From IMG/VR virus record IMGVR_UViG_3300009537_000070, positions 1-37,612 of that record: 37,612 nucleotides of DNA; one strand, written 5' to 3'. The translations under genes and the position numbers were made by a program. Under the pieces are notes generated by a model. It had not been told where the DNA came from. It did not search any database and saw only the letters and a list, made by a program, of their open reading frames with translations. The stretch's first letter is position 1; the number at the start of each line of letters is the position of its first letter. This document shows positions 1-33,547 of this stretch, piece after piece. Origin of the DNA: a virus.

Positions 1-99
1 TACCTCCAGATAGAGGTACCTCCAAATGGTGTGTAGGGGTACCTCCAGATAGAGGTACCTCCAAATGGTGTGTAGGGGTACCTCCAAATGGAGGTCATA
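1..99. repeat. Terminal direct repeat holding origin-like iterons
   Basis: These 99 bases are identical to 37514-37612. Inside are two full 39-bp units plus a partial one, with five copies of ACCTCC and three of GAGGT that form small inverted repeats: ACCTC-6 nt-GAGGT, ACCTCC-AAAT-GGAGGT and the palindrome GAGGTACCTC. The 39-bp period is 13 codons and stays in frame inside the initiator gene. The simplest reading is an assembly overlap of a circular or permuted genome broken in its own repeat. The copy number of the 39-bp unit could be collapsed or wrong. Confidence 0.9.
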
Positions 100-494: not shown

Positions 495-1377
495 AGAATT
501 AATAATAAAACACGAAAAACTTTTTACTTACGAAGGTGACGATAGAATTATCTCATCTCACGAACTAAAAGAAGAATTAGAAAAAACAAAATTAGAGAGT
601 TTTGTATTCCAAACAAAAGTACCTAGTATTGATAGAATACTTGAAGGAGTAGAAGCTGGTGAACTTATAGTTGTCTCCGGTCCTACAGGGAATGGTAAGA
701 CATCTGTACTTTCTACAATAACTAAAAATATAGCAAATGATGTTCCAATAGCCTGGTTTTCTCTGGAAGTCACTCAAAGACAATTCATTTATAAGTTTGG
801 AGAACCTACACCATTATTCTACTTACCAGCAAAAAATACCGACAATAACATTCAATGGCTAATAGATAGAATTATTGAAGCCAAAGTAAAGCATAATGTT
901 AAGATGGTATTCATCGACCACTTACATCAAATATTTTCTGTAGATCGCTTTAATGGAAAAAATCTATCACTTGAACTTGGAGACATCGTTGCTAAGATAA
1001 AACAAATTGCAATAGATTATAATTTAGTTATCTGGTTAGTAGCTCACTCAACTGATCCAAAAGACGCAACAACGAGAGAACCTAAAATGACAGATGTTCG
1101 TGATAGTGGTATGATAATTAGATTAGCAGATATAGTACTCGGTGTGTGGAGAATACCAAATCACTACAATGGATCAGAAACAACAGTAACAACTATCGAG
1201 GAAGGAGATAACCGAACGAAGATAAGAATATGGAAAAATCGCCGAACCGGCAAACTTGGATATTTTTTAATGGAGATGAATAATTTTCACTTATCAGAAA
1301 TTACTTTGACAGAAGAAGAAAAGAAACCAAAATCAAAGTATGGTAAAAAATTAGATGATGCCTATGATAACTTTTAA
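487..1377 (+). CDS. DnaB-type replicative helicase (RecA-fold core only)
   Basis: 296 residues. A Walker A motif SGPTGNGKTS lies near residues 64-73, Walker B-like MVFIDHLHQ near 140, a sensor-like VIWLVAHSTD near 180, then RDSGMIIRLAD and a C-terminal KIRIWKNRRTGKLGYF, which fits the DnaB/RadA C-terminal ATPase domain order. The DnaB N-terminal primase-binding domain is absent, so the protein is about 150 residues shorter than cellular DnaB, as in several phage helicases. It should unwind DNA at the fork after loading by the initiator, whose gene overlaps it by 8 bp (ATGTCTAA). Sixteen glycines, none coded by TGA. Confidence 0.88.
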   Translation: MSKELIIKHEKLFTYEGDDRIISSHELKEELEKTKLESFVFQTKVPSIDRILEGVEAGELIVVSGPTGNGKTSVLSTITKNIANDVPIAWFSLEVTQRQFIYKFGEPTPLFYLPAKNTDNNIQWLIDRIIEAKVKHNVKMVFIDHLHQIFSVDRFNGKNLSLELGDIVAKIKQIAIDYNLVIWLVAHSTDPKDATTREPKMTDVRDSGMIIRLADIVLGVWRIPNHYNGSETTVTTIEEGDNRTKIRIWKNRRTGKLGYFLMEMNNFHLSEITLTEEEKKPKSKYGKKLDDAYDNF

Positions 1378-1672
1378 ACAAATACAAGATAATATTCAAA
1401 AAGAATGGAAACAATTTTGTCGTGGACTCTATTCTAATTTACTCGCAATAGAAAAAGATGCAGAGAAACAGTATATGAAAGATTTTAAATCCGATATGTC
1501 TTTCCAAGAAAGAATATGGAAAATAAAAAAATGCCAAGAGTATAAAAATTTAATAAAAGAATTTGCTGATAAGAAAATAGAGATAACAAATAAATTGGTC
1601 GATGTTATTTCCACCAGAGGATTTGATTATTATTTTAGAAACTATACAAATGTACCAATGTTCGATTTGTAA
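1355..1672 (+). CDS. Hypothetical early protein, helical and lysine-rich
   Basis: 105 residues from ATG 1355; a second start at 1364 (MITFKQIQ) is equally good and gives a smaller overlap with the helicase gene. The protein is mostly charged helix (EKDAEKQYMKDFKSDM, then IKKCQEYKNLIKEFADKK) with an aromatic C-terminus, YYFRNYTNVPMFDL. I see no known motif. Its place between helicase and methyltransferase, with overlaps on both sides, makes an early replication-related role plausible but unproven. No TGA. Confidence 0.7.
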   Translation: MMPMITFKQIQDNIQKEWKQFCRGLYSNLLAIEKDAEKQYMKDFKSDMSFQERIWKIKKCQEYKNLIKEFADKKIEITNKLVDVISTRGFDYYFRNYTNVPMFDL

Positions 1673-1805
1673 GAAAAAAACTAATATAGCTTATTCAGAC
1701 TCCTGGGAGATATCTAATGAAAAGTCATTCATTAAAGATTTTCCTAATCTTAAAAGAAAAAAAGACACACCAATAATTTGGAAATGTGGTAAATGTAATA
1801 AATAA
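1650..1805 (+). CDS. Small zinc-ribbon protein
   Basis: 51 residues from ATG 1650 (MYQCSICKKK), chosen because the longer frame from 1602 adds only a shadow of the previous gene. It has CSIC near the N-terminus and CGKC three residues before the end, a classic two-knuckle zinc ribbon with about 40 residues between the pairs. It overlaps the previous gene by 23 bp and the methyltransferase start by one base (TAATG). A nucleic-acid-binding role is likely from the fold; the target is unknown. Confidence 0.65.
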   Translation: MYQCSICKKKTNIAYSDSWEISNEKSFIKDFPNLKRKKDTPIIWKCGKCNK

Positions 1806-2422
1806 TGAAAATATTAAATTTATACGCAGGTATAGGAGGTAATAGAAAACTTTGGGGTGATGAACATCAAATCACTGCTATAGAATACGACCCAGACATT
1901 GCTAAAATGTATCAAGATTTATATCCAAATGATACTGTAATAGTTGGAGATGCACACGAATATTTACAACAACACTACAAAGAATTTGATTTTATTTGGT
2001 CATCACCTCCTTGTCCTACCCACTCAAGAATGAATTTTTTACTAAAAGAAAAAGGAACAGAGATGAAATTTCCAAATATGAAACTCTATGAAGAAATATT
2101 ATTTTTACAACATTTCTTCAAAGGAAAATATGTAGTAGAAAATGTAAGAAGTTATTATAATCCTCTTATAAAACCACAAGAATTACAGAGTCATTATTTT
2201 TGGGCAAATTTTGAAATACCAGATACAGGATTGGCTCGTAAAAAAGTTAGAAATGATAAAGGACAGACATTGCAAGTAAAAATGGAACAACAAGGAATTT
2301 TTATTAAAGACTTTTATAATTATAAGCGTGATAAAAGAACACTTCTAAATAATTGTGTAGAACCTGAATTAGGAAAACATATATTTGATTGTGTCAAAAC
2401 TGTGGATAACTCACTTGCATAG
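1805..2422 (+). CDS. DNA (cytosine-5) methyltransferase, short form
   Basis: 205 residues. Motif I is LNLYAGIGGN at the N-terminus (SAM binding), an acidic residue follows at IEYDPDIA (motif II), motif IV is WSSPPCPTHSRMN with the catalytic Cys of PPC, and VVENV near residue 118 is motif VI (ENV). The C-terminal HYFWANF resembles motif VIII surroundings. At 205 residues it is far shorter than the usual 300-400, so the target-recognition region must be minimal. No restriction enzyme is adjacent, so a protective or regulatory methylation role is likelier than a restriction system (inference). Confidence 0.88.
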   Translation: MKILNLYAGIGGNRKLWGDEHQITAIEYDPDIAKMYQDLYPNDTVIVGDAHEYLQQHYKEFDFIWSSPPCPTHSRMNFLLKEKGTEMKFPNMKLYEEILFLQHFFKGKYVVENVRSYYNPLIKPQELQSHYFWANFEIPDTGLARKKVRNDKGQTLQVKMEQQGIFIKDFYNYKRDKRTLLNNCVEPELGKHIFDCVKTVDNSLA

Positions 2423-2442
2423 ATTTTACAGTATTATATAAT
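2415..2442 (+). promoter_or_regulatory. Promoter upstream of the 2476 gene
   Basis: TTGCAT at 2415-2420, a 16-bp spacer and a perfect TATAAT at 2437-2442. It leaves a leader of about 26 bases before the ATG at 2476. The early repeated motif GAGTCGGATATTAAT (2448-2462) sits at the expected start of transcription, where a repressor or activator could act. Confidence 0.55.
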
Positions 2443-2447
2443 TAAAA

Positions 2448-2462
2448 GAGTCGGATATTAAT
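2448..2462 (+). promoter_or_regulatory. Early-region repeated motif, copy 1 (operator candidate)
   Basis: GAGTCGGATATTAAT lies just downstream of the -10 box of the 2415 promoter. It differs by one base from the copy at 37196-37210 and resembles copies at 2789-2802 and (inverted) 33505-33518. Confidence 0.4.
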
Positions 2463-2475
2463 TTAAAATAAATAT

Positions 2476-2652
2476 ATGAAACACATAAAAGAATATTTAA
2501 CAAAGATACAAGAGATTAATGACAAGTATAAAGTTAATTATGATTGGGAATTAGAAGCTACAAAAGATAGATTAATTCCAAGACAAAGACTATGGGGGTA
2601 TAACTCGGTCGAACATAGTCAAGATTATAAGAATAAAGCAAATGAATACTAA
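2476..2652 (+). CDS. Hypothetical small early protein
   Basis: 58 residues starting MKHIKEYLTKIQ, with a short acidic/aromatic middle (YDWELEATKDRL) and a Tyr-rich C-terminus (HSQDYKNKANEY). The ATG lies in the recurrent AAATAAATATATG context, with no Shine-Dalgarno sequence. It is the first gene after its own promoter and overlaps the next small gene by 11 bp. I do not recognise a family. Confidence 0.6.
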   Translation: MKHIKEYLTKIQEINDKYKVNYDWELEATKDRLIPRQRLWGYNSVEHSQDYKNKANEY

Positions 2653-2782
2653 TATGGATACTAATATGGAAGAAGTATTAAACGAGGAAGTTTTAACAGA
2701 AGCTGTTGAAACTCCTGTCGAAGAAGAAGAAGTTGTAGATAATACAATCTCTACAGAAGAACTAGAAGCAGTTAGAGATTAA
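2642..2782 (+). CDS. Hypothetical acidic microprotein
   Basis: 46 residues, strongly acidic: MNTNMDTNMEEVLNEEVL, then VETPVEEEEVV, and STEELEAVRD at the end. More than a quarter of residues are Glu or Asp. Such short acidic early proteins are common in phages and can be DNA mimics or host-factor inhibitors, but nothing in this sequence decides that. It starts inside the end of the upstream gene (ATGAATACTAA), so translation is probably coupled. Confidence 0.5.
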   Translation: MNTNMDTNMEEVLNEEVLTEAVETPVEEEEVVDNTISTEELEAVRD

Positions 2783-2788
2783 GTTTAA

Positions 2789-2802
2789 TAGTCGTATATT
2801 AT
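2789..2802 (+). promoter_or_regulatory. Early-region repeated motif, copy 2, overlapping a -10 box
   Basis: TAGTCGTATATTAT runs into TATAAT at 2800-2805, upstream of the gene at 2849. No good -35 box is visible 16-18 bp upstream, so any promoter here may need an activator binding the motif. Confidence 0.4.
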
Positions 2803-2813
2803 AATTAATTTTT

Positions 2814-2837
2814 GCTACTAGGAATTGTCTTAGTAGC
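2814..2837 (+). promoter_or_regulatory. Leader hairpin before the 2849 gene
   Basis: GCTACTA (2814-2820) pairs with TAGTAGC (2831-2837) across a 10-base loop, a 7-bp stem ending 11 bases before the ATG at 2849. There is no U-tract, so it is more likely a translational or stability element than a terminator. Confidence 0.4.
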
Positions 2838-2848
2838 TACATAAAACA

Positions 2849-3010
2849 ATGGAAGATTTAAAATTATCAAAAGAGTTTACAAACTACTATAATGAAGCTA
2901 AAGAATTTTTAAAGGCAATAAAAGAAAATACCGAAGAGACTGAAAAAAGATTGAATAAAATAGATAAAGTATTATCAGATTTAAATAGATATTATTCAAA
3001 TGACAAATAA
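2849..3010 (+). CDS. Hypothetical coiled-coil microprotein
   Basis: 53 residues (MEDLKLSKEFTNYY...). From about residue 12 to the end it is one charged amphipathic helix (AKEFLKAIKENTEETEKRLNK, then IDKVLSDLNRYY) with heptad-like spacing of L/I. Probably an oligomerising or adaptor peptide; function unknown. It overlaps the following membrane peptide gene by 11 bp (ATGACAAATAA). Confidence 0.55.
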   Translation: MEDLKLSKEFTNYYNEAKEFLKAIKENTEETEKRLNKIDKVLSDLNRYYSNDK

Positions 3011-3086
3011 AGAAAATTTAATTACTTTTATATGCTTAAGTACAATGTTGGTCGTATTATTAATTTCAATAGCAATAAATTATTAA
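3000..3086 (+). CDS. Putative single-pass membrane microprotein
   Basis: 28 residues, MTNKENLITF followed by a hydrophobic stretch ICLSTMLVVLLISIAI and a short NY tail. It sits snugly between two genes: it starts within the end of the coiled-coil microprotein and stops one base before the ATG of the Rad52-type gene. The tight packing supports a real gene, the small size is against it. A host-membrane-directed early peptide is conceivable. Confidence 0.4.
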   Translation: MTNKENLITFICLSTMLVVLLISIAINY

Positions 3087-3087
3087 A

Positions 3088-3612
3088 ATGGATTTCAAGA
3101 AACTTGCAAATGAATTATTAGATAAGCTAAAAGAAAAACTACCTTTTTGGGCAGTAAAACCACATCCAATAAAATCTAATTTATCTGTAATACATCCAAT
3201 GGCAGTAATAGATAGATTAAATGAAGTATTTGAAGTAGGAGGTTGGCAGTTTACTACATCTTTCATATCCTGTGATAAAGAAAAACAAAAGACACAAAAG
3301 GGAGAAAGAGATGTGTGGGTTAGTGCTGTAAAAGGAAGATTGGAAATACCAAGACTAAATATAATACTAGAACAATATGGTGGTAGTACTAATGATGATA
3401 AGGGTGATGCTTTAAAAGGAGGAGGAACTGACGCTTTAACAAAGATTGCTTCTTATTTGGGAATAGGAGCAGAAATTTATAAGGGACACGGAAATATAAA
3501 TGGAGATGAAAAAGAAATTGAAACACCAAAAACAAGATTTGAAAAGAATGTAATTAATCCAAATAATTACAATAAAAATATTACAAATAATAATAACGAA
3601 TTAGATTTTTAA
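3088..3612 (+). CDS. Rad52/Rad22-family single-strand annealing protein
   Basis: 174 residues. The N-terminal half has VIDRLNEVFEVGGWQF and WVSAVKGRLEI, and the hallmark stretch DDKGDALKGGGTDALTKIA followed by YLGIGAEIYKG matches the Rad52 core, in which basic residues and the TDAL helix line the ssDNA groove. It should anneal complementary single strands for recombination-dependent replication or end repair. The C-terminus is a low-complexity Asn-rich tail ending in NNNNELDF, and an SSB-like gene follows 4 bp later, a common SSAP-SSB pairing. Fifteen glycines, no TGA. Confidence 0.87.
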   Translation: MDFKKLANELLDKLKEKLPFWAVKPHPIKSNLSVIHPMAVIDRLNEVFEVGGWQFTTSFISCDKEKQKTQKGERDVWVSAVKGRLEIPRLNIILEQYGGSTNDDKGDALKGGGTDALTKIASYLGIGAEIYKGHGNINGDEKEIETPKTRFEKNVINPNNYNKNITNNNNELDF

Positions 3613-3616
3613 ATAT

Positions 3617-3949
3617 ATGAAATTATCTTGCACAATAGACTTAACAAAAATAGACAAAACTAGAATAGTAGAAAGAAAATACACCAACAAAGACGGTGTT
3701 GAAGTTACACAAAAAAACTACTCTTTTGATGTAGTAGAATTAAAAGAACCAAAGACAATCAAAGAGACCGACAGATATACAATGAAAAAAACTCACTTCA
3801 TTGCTGAATCTCAAACAAAAGAAGAAAGAGACGCTAAAAAACTTTCAAACTTTATTGGTGATGTTATTAGCTTTACAAATCCAGGAGATATGGATCAAGC
3901 TTTTAACAATATAACATCTCAGGATTTAAACGAGGCTATCCCTTTCTAG
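3617..3949 (+). CDS. ssb: Probable single-stranded-DNA-binding protein
   Basis: 110 residues. It begins with a beta-rich segment (MKLSCTIDLTKIDKTRIVERK, then TQKNYSFDVVELKEP) that would fit a small OB fold, and it ends in LNEAIPF, resembling the acidic-Ile-Pro-Phe tip through which SSBs recruit partners. It lies directly behind the Rad52-type gene. I see no diagnostic motif beyond the tail and context, so the call is inference from fold-like pattern, C-terminus and neighbour. Confidence 0.6.
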   Translation: MKLSCTIDLTKIDKTRIVERKYTNKDGVEVTQKNYSFDVVELKEPKTIKETDRYTMKKTHFIAESQTKEERDAKKLSNFIGDVISFTNPGDMDQAFNNITSQDLNEAIPF

Positions 3950-3950
3950 T

Positions 3951-4091
3951 ATGAAAAGATATAAAGATAAATTAATATATGTACTCTGGGGTGACGAATG
4001 GATAAATGTTGGTTATCTTTATGGTGGGAAGGAATATTTATTAGAAGAATTTAACGCAATAGAATTATGGAAATATCAAATAGCGAAATAA
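3951..4091 (+). CDS. Hypothetical small protein
   Basis: 46 residues (MKRYKDKLIYVLWGDEWINVG...), aromatic-rich with LYGGKEYLLEEFNAIELWKY. It begins one base after the SSB stop and overlaps the next gene by 25 bp. No motif recognised; the compact, aromatic composition suggests a tiny beta fold. Confidence 0.5.
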   Translation: MKRYKDKLIYVLWGDEWINVGYLYGGKEYLLEEFNAIELWKYQIAK

Positions 4092-4249
4092 AAATAAATG
4101 GTCTAGTAGAATACTTTGGAAGTTTAGAATTTCAAAAGGATTACAATTTTAATATCTCTGGCTCAGTTGTAAAAGTAGAGGATAGAGATAATCAAGATGG
4201 AACTATTACTAAGAGGTATGTATTTAAAGTAGAAAACTTAAATGAATAA
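4067..4249 (+). CDS. Hypothetical small beta-rich protein
   Basis: 60 residues: MEISNSEIKINGLVEYFGSL, then NISGSVVKVEDRDNQDGTIT and KRYVFKVENLNE. The alternating pattern and the DGTxTKRYVFKV ending look like one half of an OB or beta-barrel fold seen in small phage DNA-metabolism proteins, but I cannot name a family. It overlaps the HNH gene by 8 bp. No TGA; this is the last gene of the TGA-free early block. Confidence 0.55.
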   Translation: MEISNSEIKINGLVEYFGSLEFQKDYNFNISGSVVKVEDRDNQDGTITKRYVFKVENLNE

Positions 4250-4589
4250 AACACAAAAACAATGTGATAAACTATTATCACCTTTGGTAGCTAAACTTAA
4301 ACCAAAGTGTTTATTGTGTAACTGACAGACGCAGGTTGCTCATCACCACGTGCATAAAAGTAAAAGTCTTATACTCAGGTATGATTTAGATAATCTAATC
4401 AACCTGTGTAATTCCTGTCACTTTAAACTTCACTACAACGAGAGCTACTGGGCTTCAAAGATTGTAGAGATAAAATGAATTGAATGGTTTCAAGACTTAG
4501 ATAAAAGAAAGAACGAGTTATGTGTTGGTGTAAACAAGATCGATTATAACGCAGTTTATGAGAGATTAAATAACTTATTAGAACATTAA
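4242..4589 (+). CDS. HNH/NinG-like nuclease (contains two TGA-Gly codons)
   Basis: 115 residues when TGA is read as Gly (codons at 4322-4324 and 4476-4478); under the standard code it would break after 27 residues. CLLCNGQT and CNSC bracket HHHVHKSKS and LRYDLDNLINLC, the pattern of NinG/Rap-type HNH proteins that cut branched recombination intermediates (CxxC zinc pair, HH catalytic pair, Asn-Ile-Leu-Cys-xx-Cys). It follows Rad52-type and SSB-like genes, which suits a recombination role. It is the first gene along the map that needs UGA decoding. Confidence 0.75.
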
Positions 4590-4600
4590 AAATAAAATAT

Positions 4601-4975
4601 ATGTGTGTTCCTATTGAAGAAAAATTAAACGATACAGGGAGTAAGAGATGCTCTCATTGTTATAGGGATTTAGTAAAAGGAGGTTTATGTAAAGATTGTA
4701 CATTGCTTCCACGATGTGAATGTTGTGAGATAATATTTAGTGATCTAGGAGATGTTCCATCAAAGGAAAATCCCCTAAGATGTAAGAGTTGTTTACAAGT
4801 TGAAGACAATATAAAAACTGAATGTTTTTTATGTAGAGATGAAATGTTTAACGACTTAGCCAGATATATAGAAAAAGGAAACCTATGCAGTACTTGTGTA
4901 TCATCAGTATTTCAAGCAACAATGCCAGAGAACAGAGGAGGTCACGGTTTACATACAGGTTTATTAATAAATTAA
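4601..4975 (+). CDS. Multi-zinc-knuckle hypothetical protein
   Basis: 124 residues with six CxxC pairs in order: CSHC, CKDC, CECC, CKSC, CFLC, CSTC. That is enough for three structural zinc sites spread over residues 17-105, followed by a Gly/Leu tail (MPENRGGHGLHTGLLIN). The array suggests a nucleic-acid- or protein-binding adaptor. I do not recognise the family. The start has the AAAATATATG context. Confidence 0.65.
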   Translation: MCVPIEEKLNDTGSKRCSHCYRDLVKGGLCKDCTLLPRCECCEIIFSDLGDVPSKENPLRCKSCLQVEDNIKTECFLCRDEMFNDLARYIEKGNLCSTCVSSVFQATMPENRGGHGLHTGLLIN

Positions 4976-4993
4976 AATAATTAAAGAATAAAT

Positions 4994-5662
4994 ATGAAAA
5001 CAAAAACAATCCAAGTTACCTCTAATGGTAAAACTGGAAAAGAATGGATAGAATATTTAGAAAAGAATAAATATAATATCGGAGATTATGCCAAAGAATT
5101 ATTACTCTCTGATGATTTTAAACCAACAAAAGGAGTTACTTACGAAATTGGCATTATAAAAGGTGATGAATTTTCGGATAACGAAAGAAACACAGCTAAT
5201 ATTCGCAAAGAAGCTAAAAAAAGAGGCTGGATAACTCCTAATGCCGAAGTTGCCTGCCTAATCAGAGAAAAATTTACCAACGAAGAATTAGAAAAAATGG
5301 GTCTTTGGGCAATTATTACAATGCACGAACCTGTAAAAGATTCTGACGGCGATCCGTACTTGCTCCATGCGTACCGTAGCGGCGGTGGTCTGTGGTTGGG
5401 CGCGTACTACGACGACCCTGACGGCAGGTGGATTCGTGAGTATGGGTTTGCTTTCGCTCTCTCGCAAGTTAGTACTTTGGAATTAGACACTCAGCCCTAT
5501 TTAGACCCTTTGCCCTTAGACCTAAAATCCTTCCAAACCCTAGTCATCAAAGAACTCCTAGCTAAAATACAACTAACCAAAGCTAAACAAGAGTTCGGTA
5601 ATGATTATGTGTTTGGATATGATGATTGTTTACGAATAATATTAGAAGAAATAAATAAATAA
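4994..5662 (+). CDS. Hypothetical protein with a GC-rich conserved core
   Basis: 222 residues. Residues about 115-152 (DSDGDPYLLHAYRSGGGLW, then LGAYYDDPDGRWIREYGFAF) are encoded by a markedly GC-rich block (5344-5446) in an otherwise AT-rich gene. I associate a similar LHAYRxxxGxWLxAYYxxPxxRW motif with proteins of candidate-phylum bacteria from memory; I cannot confirm it here. Upstream, RNTANIRKEAKKRGW is basic. No membrane segment. Function unknown. Confidence 0.65.
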   Translation: MKTKTIQVTSNGKTGKEWIEYLEKNKYNIGDYAKELLLSDDFKPTKGVTYEIGIIKGDEFSDNERNTANIRKEAKKRGWITPNAEVACLIREKFTNEELEKMGLWAIITMHEPVKDSDGDPYLLHAYRSGGGLWLGAYYDDPDGRWIREYGFAFALSQVSTLELDTQPYLDPLPLDLKSFQTLVIKELLAKIQLTKAKQEFGNDYVFGYDDCLRIILEEINK

Positions 5663-5663
5663 T

Positions 5664-5915
5664 ATGAAAATAGACACAACATTACAAAAAGCATTTCAAG
5701 AAGCGGATTTTTATGCACAAGGAAAGGCGGAAAAATCACACGAATATAAAACACTAGAGTACTATGCACACGATTATAGGGATATGGCGATGAAAGAAGA
5801 CGACTTGATGGATATGTTAGAGGGTTTCGCTGAAGCATTAAATTGCAAACACGAATGTTCCTCAAATTGTCGTAAAGAGGGCTGTAATTGTGCTTGCGGT
5901 GAGTATCATTTCTAG
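5664..5915 (+). CDS. Hypothetical protein with Cys-rich tail
   Basis: 83 residues. The N-terminal 60 are helical and acidic (MKIDTTLQKAFQEADFYAQG, then KEDDLMDMLEGFAEAL), and the last 25 carry seven cysteines (CKHECSSNCRKEGCNCACGE), most likely binding zinc. It follows the previous stop by one base. No family recognised. Confidence 0.6.
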   Translation: MKIDTTLQKAFQEADFYAQGKAEKSHEYKTLEYYAHDYRDMAMKEDDLMDMLEGFAEALNCKHECSSNCRKEGCNCACGEYHF

Positions 5916-5956
5916 CCCCCCAGAGATAACATTAACAAGTAATAAAGAATAAATAT

Positions 5957-6121
5957 ATGGAACTGGAACAAATAATAAAAGAATACAAAAAAAATAATAA
6001 AGATTTAAGATTTGGTCAAGATTTATGGAACAAGATGGCAGAAGCTGGGTATTGGAACTCACCAGAAGCTAATGCTCTATTTTTTATTAGTGATGAAGAT
6101 TTAGCTAAATTATATGAATAA
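5957..6121 (+). CDS. Hypothetical small protein
   Basis: 54 residues (MELEQIIKEYKKNNKDLRFG...WNSPEANALFFISDEDLAKLYE), helical and acidic. The start has the AAATATATG context; it overlaps the next gene by 8 bp (ATGAATAA). No recognisable motif. Confidence 0.55.
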   Translation: MELEQIIKEYKKNNKDLRFGQDLWNKMAEAGYWNSPEANALFFISDEDLAKLYE

Positions 6122-6389
6122 CAAAGATATGCCAGTATATTCTGGCGTCCTAAAATATTTTCCCGATGCTTTACTTTACATATCTAGAGTATCTAAAGCA
6201 GGTAATGACCAGCATAATCCAGGAACAGCACTTCATTGGGATAGATCTAAATCAGGTGATGAGTTAGATGCTATGATACGACACGCATTAAAAGCTGGAG
6301 AAATTGATGATGATGGTATAAGACATAGTGGAAAAATGGCTTGGCGTGCATTAGCACATTTACAGAAAGAAATAGAAAAAAATGATTAA
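6114..6389 (+). CDS. DUF5664-type protein (dATP/dGTP diphosphohydrolase N-terminal family)
   Basis: 91 residues. The order YSGVLKYFPDALLYISRVSK, AGNDQHNPGTALHWDRSKSG, then DAMIRHALKAGEIDDDGIRHSG and AWRALAHLQKE is the conserved series of the DUF5664 family, annotated elsewhere as the N-terminal part of dATP/dGTP diphosphohydrolases. A role in trimming or biasing the nucleotide pool is therefore possible. The domain is nearly full length. I see no companion adenylosuccinate-synthetase-like gene, so a modified-base (Z) genome is not indicated. Confidence 0.75.
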   Translation: MNNKDMPVYSGVLKYFPDALLYISRVSKAGNDQHNPGTALHWDRSKSGDELDAMIRHALKAGEIDDDGIRHSGKMAWRALAHLQKEIEKND

Positions 6390-6612
6390 ATTAAATTTAG
6401 GATGTGGTAAAAAAACCTTAAAAAGTTTTATAAATATTGATAAGTTTGAGAAAGGAAAGAATATTATAAATGATGATATAACTAAACTTGAATCTATAGA
6501 GAAAGGAACTGTTGATTTTATATATTCGGCTCATAGTTTGATATGCGTCCCTGAAACAAAACTACTAGATACATTCTGGGCATCAAAACCACTATTAACA
6601 GAAAATGAATAA
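6382..6612 (+). pseudogene. Truncated class I SAM-dependent methyltransferase
   Basis: 76 residues. LNLGCGKKTLKSFINIDK is motif I plus the acidic residue that binds the SAM ribose, and IEKGTVDFIYSAHSL matches motif IV surroundings of the Methyltransf_11 type. The frame then ends in ETKLLDTFWASKPLLTENE without the rest of the fold, which normally needs 180-250 residues. It stops just before a promoter, so it looks like a remnant cut by rearrangement rather than an active enzyme. Confidence 0.55.
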
Positions 6613-6623
6613 TTTGGTATAAT
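6595..6623 (+). promoter_or_regulatory. Promoter for the 6653 gene
   Basis: TTAACA at 6595-6600, a 17-bp spacer and TATAAT at 6618-6623 preceded by TTGG (extended -10). The leader then carries CTAGCATTATT and AACTTAAAAAT, features shared with the 9667 and 18110 promoters. Confidence 0.7.
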
Positions 6624-6652
6624 ACTAGCATTATTAGTTAACTTAAAAATAT

Positions 6653-6889
6653 ATGTTATTAGAAATTATATTTATCGCAGTAGCTTGTTTAGCACTTTTA
6701 GTTAGTGGTGTGATTTTACACAAAGTATCTAAACTAAAAAAACTTCTTAGATATGTGAGATCATCAATTGATTTTAATGAAGAGTGTTTGGAAGAAGCAG
6801 AAGAATCAATTAGTTATTTAGAAGACTATTTGAATATTAAAAGAGATTATAAAGATGTTGAACCAGAGTTCACATACATAAAGAAATAA
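6653..6889 (+). CDS. Membrane-anchored coiled-coil protein
   Basis: 78 residues. An N-terminal membrane helix (LLEIIFIAVACLALLVSGVI) is followed by a basic patch (HKVSKLKKLLRYVR) that puts the rest in the cytoplasm, and then by an acidic coiled coil (EECLEEAEESISYLEDYL). It has its own promoter and is followed by the structured non-coding region. Roles such as a superinfection-exclusion or inner-membrane adaptor protein are possible; nothing decides. Confidence 0.6.
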   Translation: MLLEIIFIAVACLALLVSGVILHKVSKLKKLLRYVRSSIDFNEECLEEAEESISYLEDYLNIKRDYKDVEPEFTYIKK

Positions 6890-7219: not shown

Positions 7220-7591
7220 ATGAATAACGAAGAACCTAAAATTACAGGAAGAAATGAGGATTGAACTTTTAAAGAGTGATTCTCAGGTAATCCAGCTGGC
7301 AAACCAAAAGGAGCTAGGCATATGTCTACAATACTATTAGACGCTATAAAGAAAGTATCAGAAGATAAAGGAACTTCTGAAGATGTAGAGATAGTTAAAA
7401 CACTTATAAGAAAAGCAAAGCAAGGAGATATGAAAGCTATTGATATAGTATTTGATAGAATAGAAGGAAAAGCTCCAGCTTCACTTGATGTTACATCACT
7501 AGGTGATAAGGTTAATGGAATAATTATTTTACCTCAAAAGAATGGAAATCAAATGGAAACCACAACAGAAACAGGAATTAGCACTGGCTAG
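7220..7591 (+). CDS. terS: Small terminase-like protein (DUF5681 domain), two TGA-Gly codons
   Basis: 123 residues with TGA as Gly. The N-terminus reads NEDGTFKEGFSGNPAGKPKG, in which both underlying TGA codons (7262-7264 and 7280-7282) fall on glycines of the widespread GxFxxGxSGNPxGRPKG domain (DUF5681). The rest (TILLDAIKKV, then IRKAKQGDMKAIDIVFDRIEG) is the helical part that follows in the same family. The domain is found beside large terminase genes and is taken as a DNA-recognition subunit. It overlaps the large terminase gene by 50 bp. A start at 7322 would discard the conserved domain. Confidence 0.78.
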
Positions 7592-8852
7592 AATAGAAGA
7601 TGAGATACTTTATGGTGGTGCTAGAGGATGAGGTAAGACAGATGCTGGACAAGTCTGGTTACTTTATGATATAGATAAACCTTATTATAGAGCTTTAGTT
7701 ATTAGAAGAAATGCTACAGATCTTGAGGATTGGATAGATAGAGCTAGAATGATGTATTCTTCTTGTGGCGGTGTATATACAGGAAATACTTTTACATTTC
7801 CAAGTGGTGCAAAAATACGAACAGGACATTTAAAAGATGATAATGCTTATTCTAAATATCAGGGACACGAATATCAAAAGATTCTAATAGAAGAACTTAC
7901 ACATATATCAAGAGAAGAAGATTATGAAAAGTTAAGAGCTTCTAATCGTTCAAAATATTCAGATATTAAAGCTCAAGTTTTTTGTACTACAAACCCTGAT
8001 GGTGCAGGTCACAAATGGGTTAAAAATAGATGGAATATTCCCGATAGTCCAAAAGATTTAATTATATATAAAACTCCTAATGGATTAACGAGAGTATTTA
8101 TTCCTTCTACTATAAAAGATAATCCAATATTGACTGACAATGACCCAAATTATGTTAGGCAACTTGAGAGTATTCAAGATGAAGAGCTTAGAAGAGCTTG
8201 GGTTGATGGTAGTTGGGCTGGTTTTGGAATAGAGGGTGCTTATTATAGAAATCAATTAAAAAAAGCTTTAGAGGAGAATAGAATTACTAGTGTCCCTTGC
8301 GAGTTAGGATTACCTGTTATAACTTGGTGGGATCTAGGAGTTGGTGATAGTACCTGTATTGGATTTTTTCAACAAGTTGGTTATGAGTGGCGTATAATAG
8401 ATTATTATGAAGCTTCTGGTGAAGGACTTGCTCATTATGCTTCTGTTTTAAATAATAAATGATATGTTTATTGAGAACATTATGCTCCTCACGATATTGA
8501 GGTTAGAGAATTAGGTACTGGAAGATCTCGCCTTGAACAAGCAAAAGAATATGGTATTAACTTCTCAATAGTTCCTAAACTTTCTATAGATGATGGTATA
8601 AACGCTTTAAGAACTAGATTTAATTCACTTTGGATAGATGAAAATAAATGTAAAAAACTCATAGATTGCTTAAAGAATTATCAGAAAGAATGGAATGATA
8701 AAATGGGAGAATTTAAATCTGCACCTTTACACGACTGGAGTTCTCACGCAGCTGATATGATGAGATATTGGGCAGTAACAAATCATAGTAGTTATAGAAA
8801 TAATTTTAATATTATAAGTAATAGAACTAATTATGAAAAAGGATATGAATAA
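7542..8852 (+). CDS. terL: Terminase large subunit (three TGA-Gly codons)
   Basis: 436 residues from ATG 7542 (MEIKWKPQQKQELALAR). The Walker A motif is LYGGARGGGKTDAG, whose second-last Gly before Lys is TGA at 7629-7631. Walker B-like KILIEELTHI and a coupling-type CTTNPDGAGH follow. The nuclease half has WWDLGVGDSTCIG, then NNKGYVYGEHYAPHDIEVRE with TGA at two Gly positions (8460-8462 and 8472-8474), and LHDWSSHAADMMRYWAV at the end, with the acidic residues expected for the RNase-H-like nuclease. It packages DNA into proheads. Length is normal for the family. Confidence 0.92.
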
Positions 8853-13438: not shown

Positions 13439-13492
13439 AGATTGTTGTGGGGGGTGTGCAGAACAGACTCCCCACAATTCTGCCAACAATCT
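13439..13492 (+). promoter_or_regulatory. Two-stage hairpin after the capsid gene
   Basis: AGATTG (13439-13444) with CAATCT (13487-13492) encloses TTGTGGGG (13445-13452) paired with CCCCACAA (13470-13477). A 9-base bulge lies on the 3' side and no U-tract follows. Placed between the capsid gene and the next ATG (13514), it may stabilise the capsid mRNA end or reduce read-through. Confidence 0.5.
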
Positions 13493-13513
13493 ACTTTGCT
13501 TCTACAATTAAAT

Positions 13514-13729
13514 ATGAAAACAATTTCACAATTCAAATACAAAGAAAGGGAATTTGACTTCCTTATAGATAAAGGTTTTATTGGTTACTCGTTTAAAGAT
13601 GGAGATAAGTGTTATGGACACAAACTACCATTGACTTCTAAGAAAGCAGTTGATATAATGAATGTAACAGCTTTATTAGTAATTAACGCTATTGAAACAG
13701 CGGAAGCACTATGAAACCAGAACAAGTAG
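13514..13729 (+). CDS. Hypothetical small protein ending across a TGA
   Basis: 71 residues from ATG 13514 (TTAAATATG context). MKTISQFKYKEREFDFLIDK, GYSFKDGDKCYGHKLPLTSK, then MNVTALLVINAIETAEAL. With TGA as Gly it adds GNQNK and ends at TAG 13727-13729. The TGA (13712-13714) lies inside an ATGA start-stop overlap with the next gene, the usual place for a genuine TGA stop in standard-code phages, so it may be a relic stop. Function unknown. Confidence 0.6.
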
Positions 13730-14004
13730 AAGAAGAATTAAAAAAGATTGATAGCGATATTAGTCTATCTCCTAACCCTAACAGAGAATGATTGATTAAT
13801 GTCAATTATAAGTGAGGATATATTTGCCCGATATTAGCTTCGGGTGTTTTACGTGAAACAAATCCAAGCTATGGTTATCTTTTTCCCAATGGAATATTTG
13901 GTAAGATAAGAACTTATGATGAATTGGTCGATTATGTAACTCTTATAATCGAAAAAATAAAAACAGATGAAGAATACTCTAACGACTTCTTTTGAATCGA
14001 GTAA
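13711..14004 (+). CDS. Hypothetical protein (three TGA-Gly codons)
   Basis: 97 residues with TGA as Gly (NPNREGLINVNYKGGYICPIL and NDFFGIE). The middle, LASGVLRETNPSYGYLFPNG, is rich in Gly, Tyr and Pro, and the C-terminal half is helical (YDELVDYVTLIIEKIK). It is the first gene of the TGA-rich block behind the capsid gene and overlaps the glycosyltransferase gene by 38 bp. I do not recognise it. Confidence 0.55.
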
Positions 14005-14860
14005 GATCTGCTTAGTAAACTATGAAGAACCAATATATAATGGTATACTTTCAAAGTTTGCTTATAAGATGGATGAAGAACTCAAAAAAATGGGTTTTAA
14101 TAGTTATGTTAAAAATAGACCAGATCCTGACGCAGATATTAACCATCACATAAACTATTTACCTTATAAACAAGAAAACTCCCCAGACTCTATAAATACT
14201 TTAATGGTAACTCACATATTTAATGGATATAAATTTGATACTCTTAAAGGTCAAATGAAAACAGCTGATTGTGGTATTTGTATGTCTTCTGATACTAAAA
14301 AATCACTTATAGCTAGATGAATGGAATGAAACTTTGATGTAGTATTACCCGCTCACGATTGATTAAAACCAAGACCGATAGTAATTGCTGTTTTAACTAA
14401 TGTCTATCCTGATGGTTGTAAGAGAGAACAGATGTTTGTTGAATTAGTTAATAGTATAAAAGATAAATCACGCTTTGCTTTTCGTATAATGGGAAAGGAT
14501 TGGCACGATATTTTAAAACCCCTAGTGGAACAAGGTTTACAAGTAGATTATTTTAGTGAATTTGATTATGACACCCACAAACTTATTTTGGATTCTTCTG
14601 ATTACTCATTATATCTTGGTATTGATGACGGCTCTATGGGGATTTTGGATTCTGCTCAAGCTGGTTTGAAACTAATAGCTCCAAATGTAGGTTACCATCA
14701 AGAAATTGGTATAGATTTTCCATTTAATAACCAAGAAGGGCTTAATGAGATATTTAAAAACCTAACTGATGATAGAGTCGCTGACTGGACATGGGAAAAC
14801 TATGTAAAAAAGCATTTATCTATCTGGAAAAAAATATATGATACCACAAGAACTATATAG
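13967..14860 (+). CDS. Glycosyltransferase-like protein (GT-B fold)
   Basis: 297 residues with three TGA-Gly codons (14318-14320, 14327-14329, 14360-14362). The C-terminal half has FRIMGKDWHDILKPL, YDTHKLILDSSDYSLYLG, DDGSMGILDSAQAGLKLIAP and NVGYHQEIG, which follow the donor-binding half of GT4-like enzymes (E/D-G-x-x-G-l-d-A-x-A-x-G-x-P-x-I). The N-terminal half would bind acceptor. It opens the sugar cassette. The product could decorate the virion or change host surface glycans. Confidence 0.65.
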
Positions 14861-15251
14861 TAAAATAGCTGAAAATATGCCAATAATGACAGTTGATATG
14901 ATTGTTATTAAAGGAGGCAAATATTTGCTAGTTAAAAGGAAATTAAACCCACTTAAATGAGAATATTTTGTACCTGGTGGTAGAGTATTAAAGAATGAAA
15001 AGTTGGAAGATGCTGTATATCGTAAAGCTAAACAAGAATTAGGAATTGATGTAAAAATAATATCTTGTGCTGGATTCTATGAAGATTTTTATAATGAAAA
15101 TGAGCTAGGGTTAGAGAATGTACATACAGTCGGAATAGTATTTGTTGTTTCTCCTTTAAATGAAGATATTATATTAGATAATCAATCAGCAGATTACATC
15201 TGGGCTGATGAATTACCAAGAAGATTTAAATTATATGATTCCAGTTTCTAA
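14838..15251 (+). CDS. Nudix hydrolase, GDP-mannose mannosyl hydrolase-like
   Basis: 137 residues. KRKLNPLKGEYFVPGGRVLK aligns with the GDPMH stretch (x-N-x-P-x-x-G-x-x-F-V-P-G-G-R-V), the TGA at 14958-14960 giving the conserved Gly. The Nudix box VLKNEKLEDAVYRKAKQELG has Arg-Lys where most Nudix enzymes have Arg-Glu, a departure also known from GDPMH, which cleaves GDP-mannose with inversion rather than a pyrophosphate. It overlaps both neighbours of the sugar cassette, so a role in GDP-sugar supply or disposal is likely. Confidence 0.75.
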
Positions 15252-16257
15252 ACCTTATATAACAGAATTAGATAAAAAATACGTTAATCAAGCACTTGAT
15301 GATGGCTGGATTTCTTCTAAGTGAGAATTTATAGAGAAGTTTGAGAATGCTTGGGCTAATTGGAATGATTATAAATATGGAGCTTCTTGCAACTCTGGTA
15401 CTTCAGCTTTGTTTCTTGCTTTAAAAGCTATTTGAATAAAAGAATGAGATGAGGTTATTGTTCCTGACTTTACTATGATTGCAACAGCTTGGGCAGTAAC
15501 ATATTGTGGAGCTACTCCTGTGTTTGTAGATTGTAAAGATAATCTAACAATAGACGAAACTCTTATAAGGGAAGTTATAACACCAAAGACTAGAGCTATT
15601 ATGCCTGTACATATTTATGGTAGACAATGTAATATGGATGAGATAATGAAGATTGCTTATGAATATAACTTGTATGTAGTAGAAGATAGTGCTGAAGCTC
15701 ACGGGATTAAACCTAGAGGAGATATTGCTTGTTATTCTTTCTTTGGAAACAAGATTATAACAACTGGTGAGGGTGGAATGTGTGTAACAAACGACAAAAG
15801 AATACACGATCAAATACAGCATATTAAAGCAATGGCTTTTGATAAAGACCATACATTTTTACACCCTAAATTGGGTTATAACTTTAGAATGACTAATATC
15901 CAGGCTGCTATAGGACTTGCTCAAGTTGAGCAGATTGACTATATACTCTCTAAGAGAAAACTAATTGAGGATTGGTATGATCATTATTTACCTGAAAACA
16001 TTGTAAGACAACCAAAGAGAGATGTTGTATGGATGTATGATATTTGTATGAACAATAGAGATATGATGATGAAATATTTATCTGGTAATAGTATAGAAAC
16101 AAGATACTTCTTTAAACCAATGAATGATCAACCGATGTATTCTGATACATATATTCCTTTTAGTAAAGCAAAAAAATATTCTAAACTAGGTTTTTATTTG
16201 CCAACATATACAGAATTAACAGAAGAAGAAGTTAAGTATATATGCTCAATGTTTTAA
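15235..16257 (+). CDS. DegT/DnrJ/EryC1-type sugar aminotransferase
   Basis: 340 residues. DDGWISSKGEFIEKFE, SGTSALFLALKAIGIKEGDE, VIVPDFTMIATAWAV, VVEDSAEAHGI and CYSFFGNKIITTGEGG are the standard series; the Lys of FFGNK should form the PLP Schiff base and the Asp of VVEDSAE holds the pyridine nitrogen. All three TGA codons (15322-15324, 15433-15435, 15445-15447) fall on family glycines. It transfers an amino group onto a nucleotide-linked keto sugar. Overlaps of 17 bp upstream and 16 bp downstream bind it into the cassette. Confidence 0.9.
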
Positions 16258-16898
16258 CTTGTATTACAGGAAACAAAGATAAGCTAATTGATGAACAATT
16301 CCAAGATGGTTCTATTTTTGTAGCTTTTACAGACAAGCTACAAATGTCTAATACTTGGACAGTTAAAAAAGCTCCTAATTTATTTAAAGATAATCGCAGA
16401 AATTCCCGTTTACCTAAAATACTCACTCACCAATATATTGATTCTGAATATTCATTATATATAGACTGAAATATGCAACTTAATGTATCACCACAGGAAT
16501 TGATTGATAAATATTTAAAAGATTATGATATAGCTGTTTTTAGACATCCAAGTAGGAATTGTATATATGAAGAAGCAATAATTTGCTCAAGATATTGATT
16601 AGAAGATCCTGAAATTTTAATTGACCAATGTTTAACATACGAGAAAAATGGTTATGTAAAACATAAATGACTTGCTGAGTGTGGTGTAATACTACGAAGA
16701 CACACAAAGAAAGTAGAAGAATTTAACAATGCTTGGTGGAGTGAATATTGCCGACACGGAAAGAGAGATCAAATAAGTTTTATGTATGCTATTGACAAGA
16801 TTGGTATTCGTGTCAACATTATAGATGATTTGGATTATAAATATAAAAGTATTATTCACAGTAAACATTCGATACCCAATAATACAAAACAATACTAA
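16242..16898 (+). CDS. DUF616/TOD1-like glycosyltransferase
   Basis: 218 residues with three TGA-Gly codons (16468-16470, 16597-16599, 16669-16671). RLPKILTHQYIDSEYSLYID-G-N carries a DxD-like SLYIDGN, then VFRHPSRNCIYEEA, GLAECGVILRRHTKKVEEFN and WWSEYCRHGKRDQISFMYAI. This ordered set is typical of the DUF616 (TOD1/MUCI70) glycosyltransferase-like domain. Members act on glycans or modify proteins; the substrate here is unknown. Confidence 0.75.
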
Positions 16899-16911
16899 AC
16901 GAAATAAATTT

Positions 16912-18036
16912 ATGAAAATATTTTCAAACTATGTAGATTATCAGGAGAATAAGGAACGCAAAAAGAAAAACTGATATTGAGGTTGTGGTTATTATCGTAC
17001 AATTAAACCAACAAAACAGATCAATAATCATAATATAGTAGTTTATGGTAAAGAATTAGAGAAACTACCAAGTGAAACTAAATGGAATACTATTGCAAAA
17101 GAATATGATTTACTTTGGATGAGATACTTTGATGGTGAGCAGGCTGCCTGTGCTGTATTTTGAAATGCAGAACACTATGGCAAGAAAGTTATTTTAGATA
17201 TAGATGATGATATTATAAACATAATGAGTGGCAATCCTGCTATTGAGAGATATAAGCAATGAGGTGCTAGAAAAGCTATAGTAAAAACAATTCTATCATT
17301 AGCTAACTGATTAACTGTATCAACTGAACCTTTAAAAAAACTATATGAAGATCACTTCTGGAAAGTGCATAAAATTAAAATGCCTATCAAAGTTATACCT
17401 AACTATAATGATATAAACGACTGGAATTTCCCTATAAAAGAAAAATCTAAAGATATTATAATTGGGTATATGGGATCAACTTCTCACTATGATGACTTGG
17501 TTATGGTTCTTCCTGTGATAAAGAAGTTAATGATTAAATATCCAACTCTTAGGTTTCAAATGATGGGTATTTTAACAACAGAAAAAGTAAAAGAGATATT
17601 TAAAGATTGGGATGGTAATTTACTTAATAGATTAGATATAGTTTGAGCAACAAATACCTTTAAAGAATTTCCTGAATGGCTATGTAATCAGCAATGGAAT
17701 ATATGAATAGCTCCTTTAGTAGATACAGCTTTTAATCGTTCTAGATCTCATATTAAATGGATGGAATACTCTATGATTAAAATACCAACTGTCGCTTCAA
17801 GAGTTTATCCATATTTTATTGAGTTAGACGGAAAAGATACTATCCGAGATGGTGAGACAGGATTTTTATGCTCTACACCAGAACAATGGGAAAAAACTCT
17901 ATCTAAACTTATAGAAGACGAAGAATTGCGTATTAAAATAGGACAACAAGCATATAATTACATCAAAGATAATTGGCAATATAAAGACTCTAAAATAGAA
18001 GAAAAGCTTGATTCACTATTGCAAGAAATTGAATAA
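16912..18036 (+). CDS. GT4-family glycosyltransferase (seven TGA-Gly codons)
   Basis: 374 residues and the gene richest in TGA per length after the collagen-like fibre. GYGGCGYYRTIKPT at the N-terminus matches the G-x-G-x-Y-R-x-x-x-P acceptor-site loop; VILDIDDDIINI, LANGLTVSTEPLKKLY, KVIPNYNDINDW, IIIGYMGSTSHYDD, and IGIAPLVDTAFNRSRSHIK-to-EYS with GETGFLCSTPEQW make a complete GT-B glycosyltransferase of the GT4/Glycos_transf_1 type. It closes the sugar cassette and is followed by a terminator. Confidence 0.85.
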
Positions 18037-19839: not shown

Positions 19840-19857
19840 TAATAATAAAATAAAAAT

Positions 19858-24988: not shown

Positions 24989-25810
24989 ATGTCAACAGAC
25001 GATGAGTTATTAAACAAAATAGATAAGATATTAACCTATGGTGAGGATAACTTGCCTGTATTAGACGATATTGAAAGACTAGACTCTGAAATTGAAGAAT
25101 TGGAAAAATCACTTGATGATTCTGTTTCACAAATAGAGGAAAAAATAACCAACATTCAACTTATTCCAGGTGAAAAAGGTGATCAAGGTATAAAAGGAGA
25201 AAAAGGCGACAAGGGAGATAAAGGCGACAAAGGTGATAATGGTAAAGATGGCATAAATGGAAAAGATTGAATTAATTGAATTGATGGGGAAGATGGCTCT
25301 GATGGTAAAGACGGAAAAGATTGATTAAACGGTAAAGATGGTTCACCGGATATGGCTGAGAATATACGGAATAAACTAGAACTTCTACAAGGTAATGAAA
25401 GACTAGACAAATCAGCAATTCGTGGTCTTGAAGACTTAGAAATGAATATCCGAAATATTCCAAAGTGAATGGGTGGAACATCTTTAGAGGTTTATCAAAA
25501 TTGAGTTAAAATAGGAACGGGTGGCAAACTTAATTTTTCAGGTGCTACAGTAACTCATTTATGAGATACTAATACAATAAAAATTAATTCGTATACTCCA
25601 GACAATGTCACTGCAGGAACTATAACCCGAACTTCAGATTTAATATCTTCCATAGCTCTAACTAAATCACTTGGCACAGACGCAATAACAATCAACAGAG
25701 ATGGAAATAATAGAATATCAAGCATAGTTTCAGTTTATAACGCAATAACCAAGACAACAACTTTTACAAGAGATGGAAATGGCATAATAACAAGTTTTGC
25801 TGTAACCTAA
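24989..25810 (+). CDS. Collagen-like tail fibre (six TGA-Gly codons)
   Basis: 273 residues. After an acidic coiled coil (DDIERLDSEIEELEKSLDD) comes an uninterrupted run of Gly-X-Y triplets from about residue 57 to 115 (KGDKGDKGDKGDNGKDG and onward). Three of the Gly positions in this run are TGA (25267-25269, 25276-25278, 25321-25323); any other meaning would break the triple helix, so this gene alone fixes UGA as Gly. Further TGA codons follow at 25468-25470, 25501-25503 and 25561-25563. The C-terminus is a beta-rich head (TFTRDGNGIITSFAVT). A trimeric fibre is expected. Confidence 0.88.
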
Positions 25811-32138: not shown

Positions 32139-33050
32139 ATGAAAATACAAGTTTTAACAAACAGAATATCTAACTACAAAGAAGACTTTAACAAAGCCCA
32201 GAAGTATTTTAATGACCACGGTGTAGACTTTCAATTCTCTTTTAAACCTTGTGATGTTAAAGGATACTACTCAGAAAAAGCACATACCGCAGCAGGTGGA
32301 GAACAGTTTATTTTAACCAATGTAACAGTACCAATAGATAAAACTTTTGATGGTACTATTTTTGCTTTTGATTTAATGGAATGGAAAACTCCTGCAGGCT
32401 CTAAATTTCCTTTACTACCTAATACACCAAGTGGAAGTTGTATAATGGCAGGAGGTAAACCTTTTATAATGTTACCAATATCTCCTATAGGAAGTTGTTA
32501 TATAACTTTGATTCACGAGCTTATGCACCTATTAAATAAAACTTTTAATTGCAAAGATGTTATGGATACATATAGAGAAAATGATAACCCTAACTCCCCA
32601 ACAGGAAACTTTACAGAACAATGGAAAATACTAGATGTCTTTATTAAAAATATCAAAGATTTAAGTGCAGATATTATAAAAAATACAAAACCAACTTGGA
32701 AATACTTTAAACTAGATGAGTCAACAGGAGGAGGACACACTATTTCAGAATTAAAACCTCAATTAGTAGATATGGTAGATAGAGCTAGATGATTAGCAGG
32801 TATTCCTTTTGTCATTACTTCTGGTTATAGAACTGTTGCAGAAAATGCAAAGATTGGAGGTGTATCTGACTCAGCTCATATAAGATGATTAGCTGCCGAT
32901 ATTAGATGTGTTGGTGGTGAGAATAGATTTAAAATGATAAACGCTTTTCTACAAGTGGGTTTTAATCGTATCTGAATAAACTTTGATAAAGATTTTATAC
33001 ACGTTGATTGTGATCCATCACTTCCTCAAAATGTCATTTGGTGATATTAA
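32139..33050 (+). CDS. Two-domain endolysin: HExxH-type domain plus M15 peptidase
   Basis: 303 residues with four TGA-Gly codons (32791-32793, 32887-32889, 32974-32976, 33042-33044). The N-terminal part has ITLIHELMHLLNK near residue 130, a zinc-metalloprotease HExxH signature, in a domain of about 200 residues. The C-terminal part is a D-Ala-D-Ala/L-Ala-D-Glu peptidase of the M15 type: ITSGYRTVAENAKIGGVSDS, AHIRGLAADIR with the zinc-binding His and Asp, FNRIGINFDKDFIHVD, and the end VIWGY. TGA falls on conserved Gly of the M15 fold. With the standard code it would lose the whole M15 domain. It should cut peptidoglycan peptides at lysis. Confidence 0.83.
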
Positions 33051-33133
33051 TTGACAAACTAGGAATATGTGATATTTAGTTTTTTATTAACTTGTTATTA
33101 ACACATCAATATATACTTGTAAAATAGTAGTGA

Positions 33134-33147: not shown

Positions 33148-33218
33148 GCGGGATTGGTGTAATGGTAACACAGCAAGCTTCAACCTTGCCTTTATGAGTT
33201 CAAGTCTCGTATCCCGCA
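33148..33218 (+). tRNA. tRNA with anticodon UCA, tRNA-Gly-like (UGA decoder)
   Basis: Full cloverleaf of 71 bases. Acceptor GCGGGAT (33148-33154) with ATCCCGC (33211-33217); D stem GTGT with ACAC around the loop AATGGTA; anticodon stem GCAAG with CTTGC; anticodon loop CTTCAAC with anticodon TCA at 33180-33182; variable CTTT; T stem ATGAG with CTCGT around TTCAAGT; discriminator A. No CCA is encoded. G1-C72, C2-G71 and G3-C70, known glycine identity pairs in bacteria, are all present, whereas Trp and Sec tRNAs differ. It reads UGA. The discriminator A instead of the usual bacterial U is an exception to note. Confidence 0.92.
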
Positions 33219-33220
33219 CT

Positions 33221-33487
33221 ATGAACAAAGAATCAATAATAAAAATGTTAGACGATAAAGTTTGTGAATCAGATCATCCTTTCTGGAGGGATGTTACTAT
33301 CCAAGATGTAGAGATTGACGACTTATATGGTCAAGGTAGAGTGTTAATAACTAAAGGATGGGAAGAACCTATACCTTTTACACTAGGAGCTTTATTCTGG
33401 GATAGTGATGAAGTACCGTGAATCAGTTGGTTTCAAACAGAAGATGAGATGATGGATAAATTTGACAAATTATACGGAATAGAATAG
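33221..33487 (+). CDS. Hypothetical protein cotranscribed with the tRNA
   Basis: 88 residues from ATG 33221, two bases after the tRNA 3' end, with one TGA-Gly (33419-33421, DEVPGISWFQ). DKVCESDHPFWRDVTIQDVE, DDLYGQGRVLITKGWEEPIP and DEMMDKFDKLYGIE make a compact mixed fold. A start at 33194 would lie inside the tRNA and is rejected. Function unknown; processing of the tRNA would free its mRNA with almost no leader. Confidence 0.6.
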
Positions 33488-33504: not shown

Positions 33505-33518
33505 ATAATATACGACTC
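33505..33518 (-). promoter_or_regulatory. Early-region repeated motif, inverted copy
   Basis: On the minus strand it reads GAGTCGTATATTAT, matching the early-region copies at 2789 and 37196 but pointing left. It lies between the 33221 gene and its terminator. Confidence 0.35.
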
Positions 33519-33522
33519 GGAG

Positions 33523-33543
33523 AAAGCCCTTCTGGGGCTTTTT
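33523..33543 (+). terminator. Rho-independent terminator
   Basis: AAAGCCC (33523-33529) pairs with GGGCTTT (33535-33541) over a 5-base loop, followed by further T residues. Ends the tRNA unit. Confidence 0.85.
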
Positions 33544-33547
33544 CTGT

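Follow-up and report, generated by a model that had tools for sequence, protein, structure and literature searches.

A phage-encoded tRNA with anticodon UCA in a genome whose UGA codons align with glycine

The viral DNA analysed here, IMG/VR record IMGVR_UViG_3300009537_000070 in its full length of 37,612 nucleotides (hereafter the window), carries a single tRNA gene with the anticodon UCA on the plus strand (33148..33218). Over the whole window, ARAGORN called one tRNA with anticodon TCA (span 33148-33219), and the Rfam model RF00005 gave a full match at 33148-33218 (62.2 bits, E 2.6e-11, at a cut-off of 29 bits); neither program found a second tRNA in the window. The arms of the cloverleaf were recovered by unaided folding (-22.0 kcal/mol, z -2.5), and inspection shows every stem to be fully paired: the acceptor stem GCGGGAU/AUCCCGC, which contains the pairs G1-C72, C2-G71 and G3-C70, the D stem GUGU/ACAC, the anticodon stem GCAAG/CUUGC with the loop CUUCAAC and thus C32/C38, and the T stem AUGAG/CUCGU. 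A preliminary description of this DNA had claimed a sole tRNA with UCA anticodon, a fully paired cloverleaf and the same three acceptor pairs, located between the endolysin gene and a small gene, and all of these points were borne out. It had made no mention of three further features: the discriminator is A73, CCA is not encoded (the sequence runs on as A-CTATG), and the D loop and the variable region are short, with 7 nt and 4 nt, respectively. The selenocysteine label assigned by ARAGORN was rejected; the architecture of tRNA-Sec is absent, and UGA is spread over approximately half of the genes. At the 3' end of the tRNA, Rfam recognised no theta/HDV-like ribozyme at E values of up to 5, and an exact-arm search of IMG/VR retrieved no sister tRNAs.

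The tRNA gene is preceded by the endolysin gene (32139..33050, plus strand), assigned to Peptidase M15_3 by family search, which ends 97 nt before it and contains four in-frame TGA codons, one of them at the glycine of SAHIR[G]LAAD. The small gene on the other side (33221..33487, plus strand) has no PHROG match and one in-frame TGA. Its ATG at 33221 lies 3 nt past A73, and no ribosome-binding site is seen in the 33194-33487 region, so that 3' processing of the tRNA would yield a nearly leaderless mRNA. A consensus scan revealed a candidate promoter for the tRNA (TTAACA-16-TAAAAT, 10/12, at 33098..33125, plus strand), which is weak because the region is AT-rich and eight such candidates were found where 4.4 are expected by chance. 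Behind the small gene, a terminator scan placed a strong intrinsic terminator consisting of a 13-pair stem and a T run (33518..33546, plus strand); three terminators were found versus 0.3 expected.

Judged from the protein alignments, UGA stands for glycine in the genes of this phage. In a column test with controls, glycine makes up 59% of the relatives' residues at UGA columns, compared to 67% where the window has GGA and 70% where it has GGT, and it is the commonest residue in 21 of the 29 aligned UGA columns; TGG control columns are 68% tryptophan and CGA columns mostly arginine. A first column run had yielded glycine for 344 of ~590 residues of viral relatives (counts that are not independent, as the sequences are related) at the UGA positions of the window and tryptophan for a single one, and tryptophan as the meaning of UGA in the window is ruled out by the column test. 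Where relatives have glycine at these columns, GGA is their commonest codon. The gene of the terminase large subunit (7542..8852, plus strand) has three in-frame TGA codons, of which codon 30 (nt 7629-7631) encodes the Walker-A glycine, GGARG[G]GKT, a position occupied by glycine in 86 of 87 relatives. In a protein with a collagen-like G-X-Y repeat (24989..25810, plus strand), each of the TGA codons 94, 97 and 112 occupies a G position, and the glycine phase of these three codons is readable without any alignment. The coding density is 0.918 with TGA as sense and 0.783 with TGA as stop codon, and the 53 genes predicted in full under table 25 all stop at TAA or TAG, none at TGA. Pfam scores mostly follow the same trend: the M15 domain scores 66.0 with UGA read as glycine, 61.4 with histidine and 56.4 with tryptophan, and DegT scores 328.6 with glycine versus 315.1 with tryptophan; against the trend, Terminase_6N scores best with serine (51.3; tryptophan 48.2, glycine 46.9). 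A reading of CGA as tryptophan, as in Absconditabacteria, was rejected, since the CGA columns hold 44% arginine and tryptophan is not among their top residues; the predominance of arginine argues against Absconditabacteria as the host group.

UGA accounts for 59 of the 799 glycine codons in the window (7.4%), far below its share in code-25 genomes (14-75%) and in the code-25 viral contig L107 (33%), and the demand for the phage tRNA therefore looks modest. Its density differs strongly from gene to gene (permutation p 0.0002). The left-end genes for a helicase, recombination and other functions (168..6889, plus strand) use UGA for 2 of 101 glycine codons versus 53 of 638 in the middle region (Fisher p 0.023), and an early HNH gene contains two UGAs. 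The highest share is reached in a module of NUDIX, DegT aminotransferase and glycosyltransferase genes (13442..18036, plus strand; 21 of 90). Five virion or late genes, picked after the counts were seen (26079-29768, 12518-13429, 19039-20502 and 30746-31513), have no UGA among 214 glycine codons, whereas their neighbours use it. Such an uneven density agrees with a recent or incomplete shift to code 25, or with UGA being avoided where expression is high; an early/late switch of the code accounts for it less well, even though UGA is scarce in the left-end genes too.

An exact terminal overlap of 99 bases in the record indicates a complete or near-complete phage genome. A short in-frame repeat (PPDRGTSKWCVGV) extends across this overlap (window 1-150 and 37470-37612), and its repeat number at the junction may be uncertain. 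The nearest relatives by terminase (60-70% identity) are standard-coded, UGA stops being numerous in several of them, and a UCA tRNA was found in none of 50 relative records. In a further relative with 57.5% TerL identity (L023 1740-2987, IMGVR_UViG_3300009151_005422), each of the eight in-frame TGAs aligns with tryptophan, so that codes 11, 4 and 25 are represented in one phage family. A syntenic relative with 48% TerL identity is a prophage integrated in a standard-code Patescibacterium that has RF2, where it adjoins an integrase gene and a glutamyl/glutaminyl-tRNA synthetase gene. Shine-Dalgarno motifs precede only 1 of 54 window genes (168-37107) and are absent in most relatives and in the tested Patescibacteria, including those with code 25, versus 56% of the genes in an unrelated control phage. 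Scans of viral and genome collections with the portal protein came up empty owing to the poor conservation of the seed peptides. On the best reading, the window represents a phage lineage that is presumably adapted to a code-25 Patescibacterium and carries a UGA-Gly tRNA in a probably supplementary role.

The phage tRNA is likely charged with glycine, as judged from its sequence. The preliminary description had regarded it as a UGA-Gly decoder; the glycine meaning of UGA in the genes, the UCA anticodon, the glycine-type acceptor pairs and C38 agree with this assignment, whereas A73 and a tie between isotypes leave glycine charging itself no more than likely. The isotype comparison, which the preliminary description had put forward as a check, likewise gave a divided answer: a position model derived from 821 tRNAs, a biased training set partly gathered by tRNA patterns, scores histidine 2.8 bits, glycine 2.5, leucine -0.3 and tryptophan -2.1, which leaves glycine tied with histidine; without position 73, glycine comes first (4.0 versus 3.6 for histidine). 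For a UCA tRNA to be assigned to glycine, the published rule further requires U73 (PMC8629427), which is present in all eight other code-25 UCA tRNAs found and replaced by A73 in the phage tRNA; a small number of phage tRNA-Gly(UCC) also have A73. A hallmark shared with the code-25 tRNAs is C38, which was left unconstrained in the search patterns: it is present in 9 of 9 code-25 UCA tRNAs, the phage tRNA included, versus 0 of 13 other UCA tRNAs (Fisher 2e-6, with some of the sequences related and not independent). The former comprise the phage tRNA, that of L107, four chromosomal ones from Gracilibacteria-type genomes, two in G229 and one in G258, the label 'code-25' resting for most genomes on the UCA tRNA, a missing RF2 and in-frame UGAs; the latter comprise glycine-type tRNAs from standard-code genomes as well as tryptophan-type tRNAs and one other from phages. 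The phage tRNA does not resemble the tryptophan-type UCA tRNAs of other phages, which have G73 and mostly A1-U72. A descent from tRNA-His, to which a single blastn match had pointed, was rejected; neither N73 nor the equally close tRNA-Gly(UCC) L296 supports it.

The searches brought up several other kinds of tRNA. Glycine-type UCA tRNAs in genomes labelled Streptococcus, Thalassotalea, Alphaproteobacteria and Akkermansia (L117, L118, L124 and L111) appear to be natural opal-suppressor forms of tRNA-Gly(UCC). Others (L108, L109, L120-L123) resemble tRNA-Leu(CAA) with a GCGG acceptor and a short variable region and are mostly located in tRNA arrays; in several of them the 31-39 position is unpaired. 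The UCA tRNAs L406-L412 and L414 on phage contigs are of the tryptophan type (G73, A38) and probably stem from code-4 phages. In a code-25 contig of the G229 bin, a divergent tRNA cluster ends in a UCA tRNA and is accompanied by a polynucleotide-kinase-like gene (L212, G229:C33 60000-66494); the same bin also holds a second UCA tRNA of chromosomal type (L216).

Whether A73 is tolerable in a glycine tRNA presumably depends on the enzymes of the host. Position 73 is nearly always U in bacterial tRNA-Gly, of which 239 of 232,109 have A73, and the E. coli editing enzyme DTD strips glycine off U73A tRNA-Gly nearly 100x better than off the wild type (PMC6097841). The alpha2 glycyl-tRNA synthetase (GlyRS) of Thermus charges the A73 as well as the U73 form (PMC3990555). 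An alpha2-type GlyRS was found in 8 of 8 code-25 and other Patescibacteria genomes tested, and DTD (PF02580) in 0 of 9 versus 8 of 14 control genomes; the code-25 genomes tested have no RF2 above cut-off and carry their own UCA tRNA. Going by this gene content, A73 would be compatible with DTD-free hosts that have alpha2 GlyRS and a burden in many other bacteria. More speculatively, an A73 tRNA-Gly(UCA) might work only with alpha2 GlyRS and no DTD, the loss of DTD in Patescibacteria having freed the U73 rule, and the phage might be midway in leaving the standard code for code 25, its tRNA having been acquired before UGA became common; we hold this extended scenario to be possible but doubtful.

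As a whole, the data are probably best explained in the following manner: the window holds nearly the whole genome of a phage that infects a Gracilibacteria-like code-25 Patescibacterium and comes from a family mostly on the standard code, and UGA serves as an extra glycine codon in its genes. The host would add CCA to the phage tRNA, its alpha2-type GlyRS would then charge the tRNA with glycine, A73 notwithstanding, and the product may supplement the host tRNA-Gly(UCA) during infection. It is a reasonable inference that the phage does not rely on the host supply of UGA-Gly tRNA alone. The tRNA with its anticodon, the reading of UGA as glycine in the genes and the family context are direct observations; the near-absence of A73 from bacterial tRNA-Gly, the glycine/histidine tie, the low use of UGA, and the fact that neither a CRISPR spacer nor a prophage of this particular phage connects it with a code-25 host, count against the explanation.

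For code-4 and code-15 phages, a switch of the code has been put forward (see the discussion in PMC10746230 and PMC10879173), and in a standard-code host tRNA-Gly(UCA) might analogously be turned on late, so that late genes with UGA, such as those of terminase, portal and endolysin, are expressed only from then on. The UGA-poor left end, the standard-coded relatives and the fact that the tRNA is phage-encoded would suit such a switch, but UGA is absent from the five virion or late genes and present twice in the early HNH gene, and its density follows the gene rather than timing. Moreover, neither a phage release factor nor a synthetase was recognised among the family-searched genes, and A73 would expose the Gly-tRNA to DTD, which is found in many standard-code bacteria (PMC6097841). 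On balance, we regard a code switch as unlikely. Slightly less credible still is that the tRNA reads UGA but is charged poorly, with histidine, leucine or tryptophan, or with a mixture, in which case a host tRNA would do the decoding and the phage gene would be a relic or serve another use. A73, the marginally higher histidine score and a phage tRNA-His(GUG) that is 78% identical over 63 nt point in this direction; the glycine consensus at the UGA columns and the C38 signature point away from it, as do the lack of C73 expected for histidine, a variable region shorter than in most leucine tRNAs and the lack of the G73 or A1-U72 of tryptophan tRNAs. The intact stems throughout indicate that the gene is not decaying, in contrast to what a relic would suggest. 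Very improbable is an escape from host defence, in which the phage tRNA, more than contributing to codon supply, would take the place of host tRNA-Gly(UCA) that an anticodon nuclease has cleaved. The combination of UCA tRNA, tRNA cluster and polynucleotide-kinase-like gene (the kinase identified by eye) in G229:C33 is in line with this idea, but no repair enzyme was recognised in the window phage, which has no other tRNA, and we know of no anticodon nuclease that cuts tRNA-Gly(UCA).

An altered genetic code in the host is commonly regarded as an obstacle for viruses. A phage that belongs to a mostly standard-code family, uses UGA sparingly for glycine and supplies the decoder itself may illustrate how this code barrier is crossed. 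A73 leads to a testable prediction about the synthetase and editing enzymes that allow for a glycine tRNA; C38 provides a simple mark for finding further code-25 UCA tRNAs.

A 2023 study described phages and prophages with code 25 (PMC10746230), and phage-encoded UGA-Gly tRNAs are already known from one earlier report: the 39-kb Absconditicoccaceae phage RSA-ATP1 carries a tRNA-Gly-sup(TCA), described as the first for a patescibacterial phage (PMC13059738), and the case presented here is a further example. Both are tailed phages of similar size that use code 25 and encode a UCA tRNA assigned to glycine; RSA-ATP1 has three further tRNAs and UGA in 60% of its ORFs, whereas the window phage has a sole tRNA and rarer UGA. 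The distinct features of the window tRNA are that it is the only one of its genome, A73 as set against the other code-25 UCA tRNAs examined here, the lack of an encoded CCA and the mostly standard-code family. With the chromosomal tRNA-Gly(UCA) of Gracilibacteria and Absconditabacteria it has in common the UCA anticodon, G1-C72/C2-G71/G3-C70 and C38; these have U73, a mostly encoded CCA and a mostly longer D loop, in contrast to A73, no CCA and 7 nt in the window tRNA. The tRNA-Trp(UCA) of code-4 phages is also a phage-encoded UCA tRNA that decodes UGA and has a similar D arm, but differs by G73, mostly A1-U72, A38 and its presumed tryptophan meaning as opposed to glycine. The phage tRNA-Gly(UCC) L296 shares the first seven bases, i.e., the 5' acceptor strand, nearly the same D arm and 78% overall identity with the window tRNA, and it differs in its anticodon UCC, U73, encoded CCA and A38.
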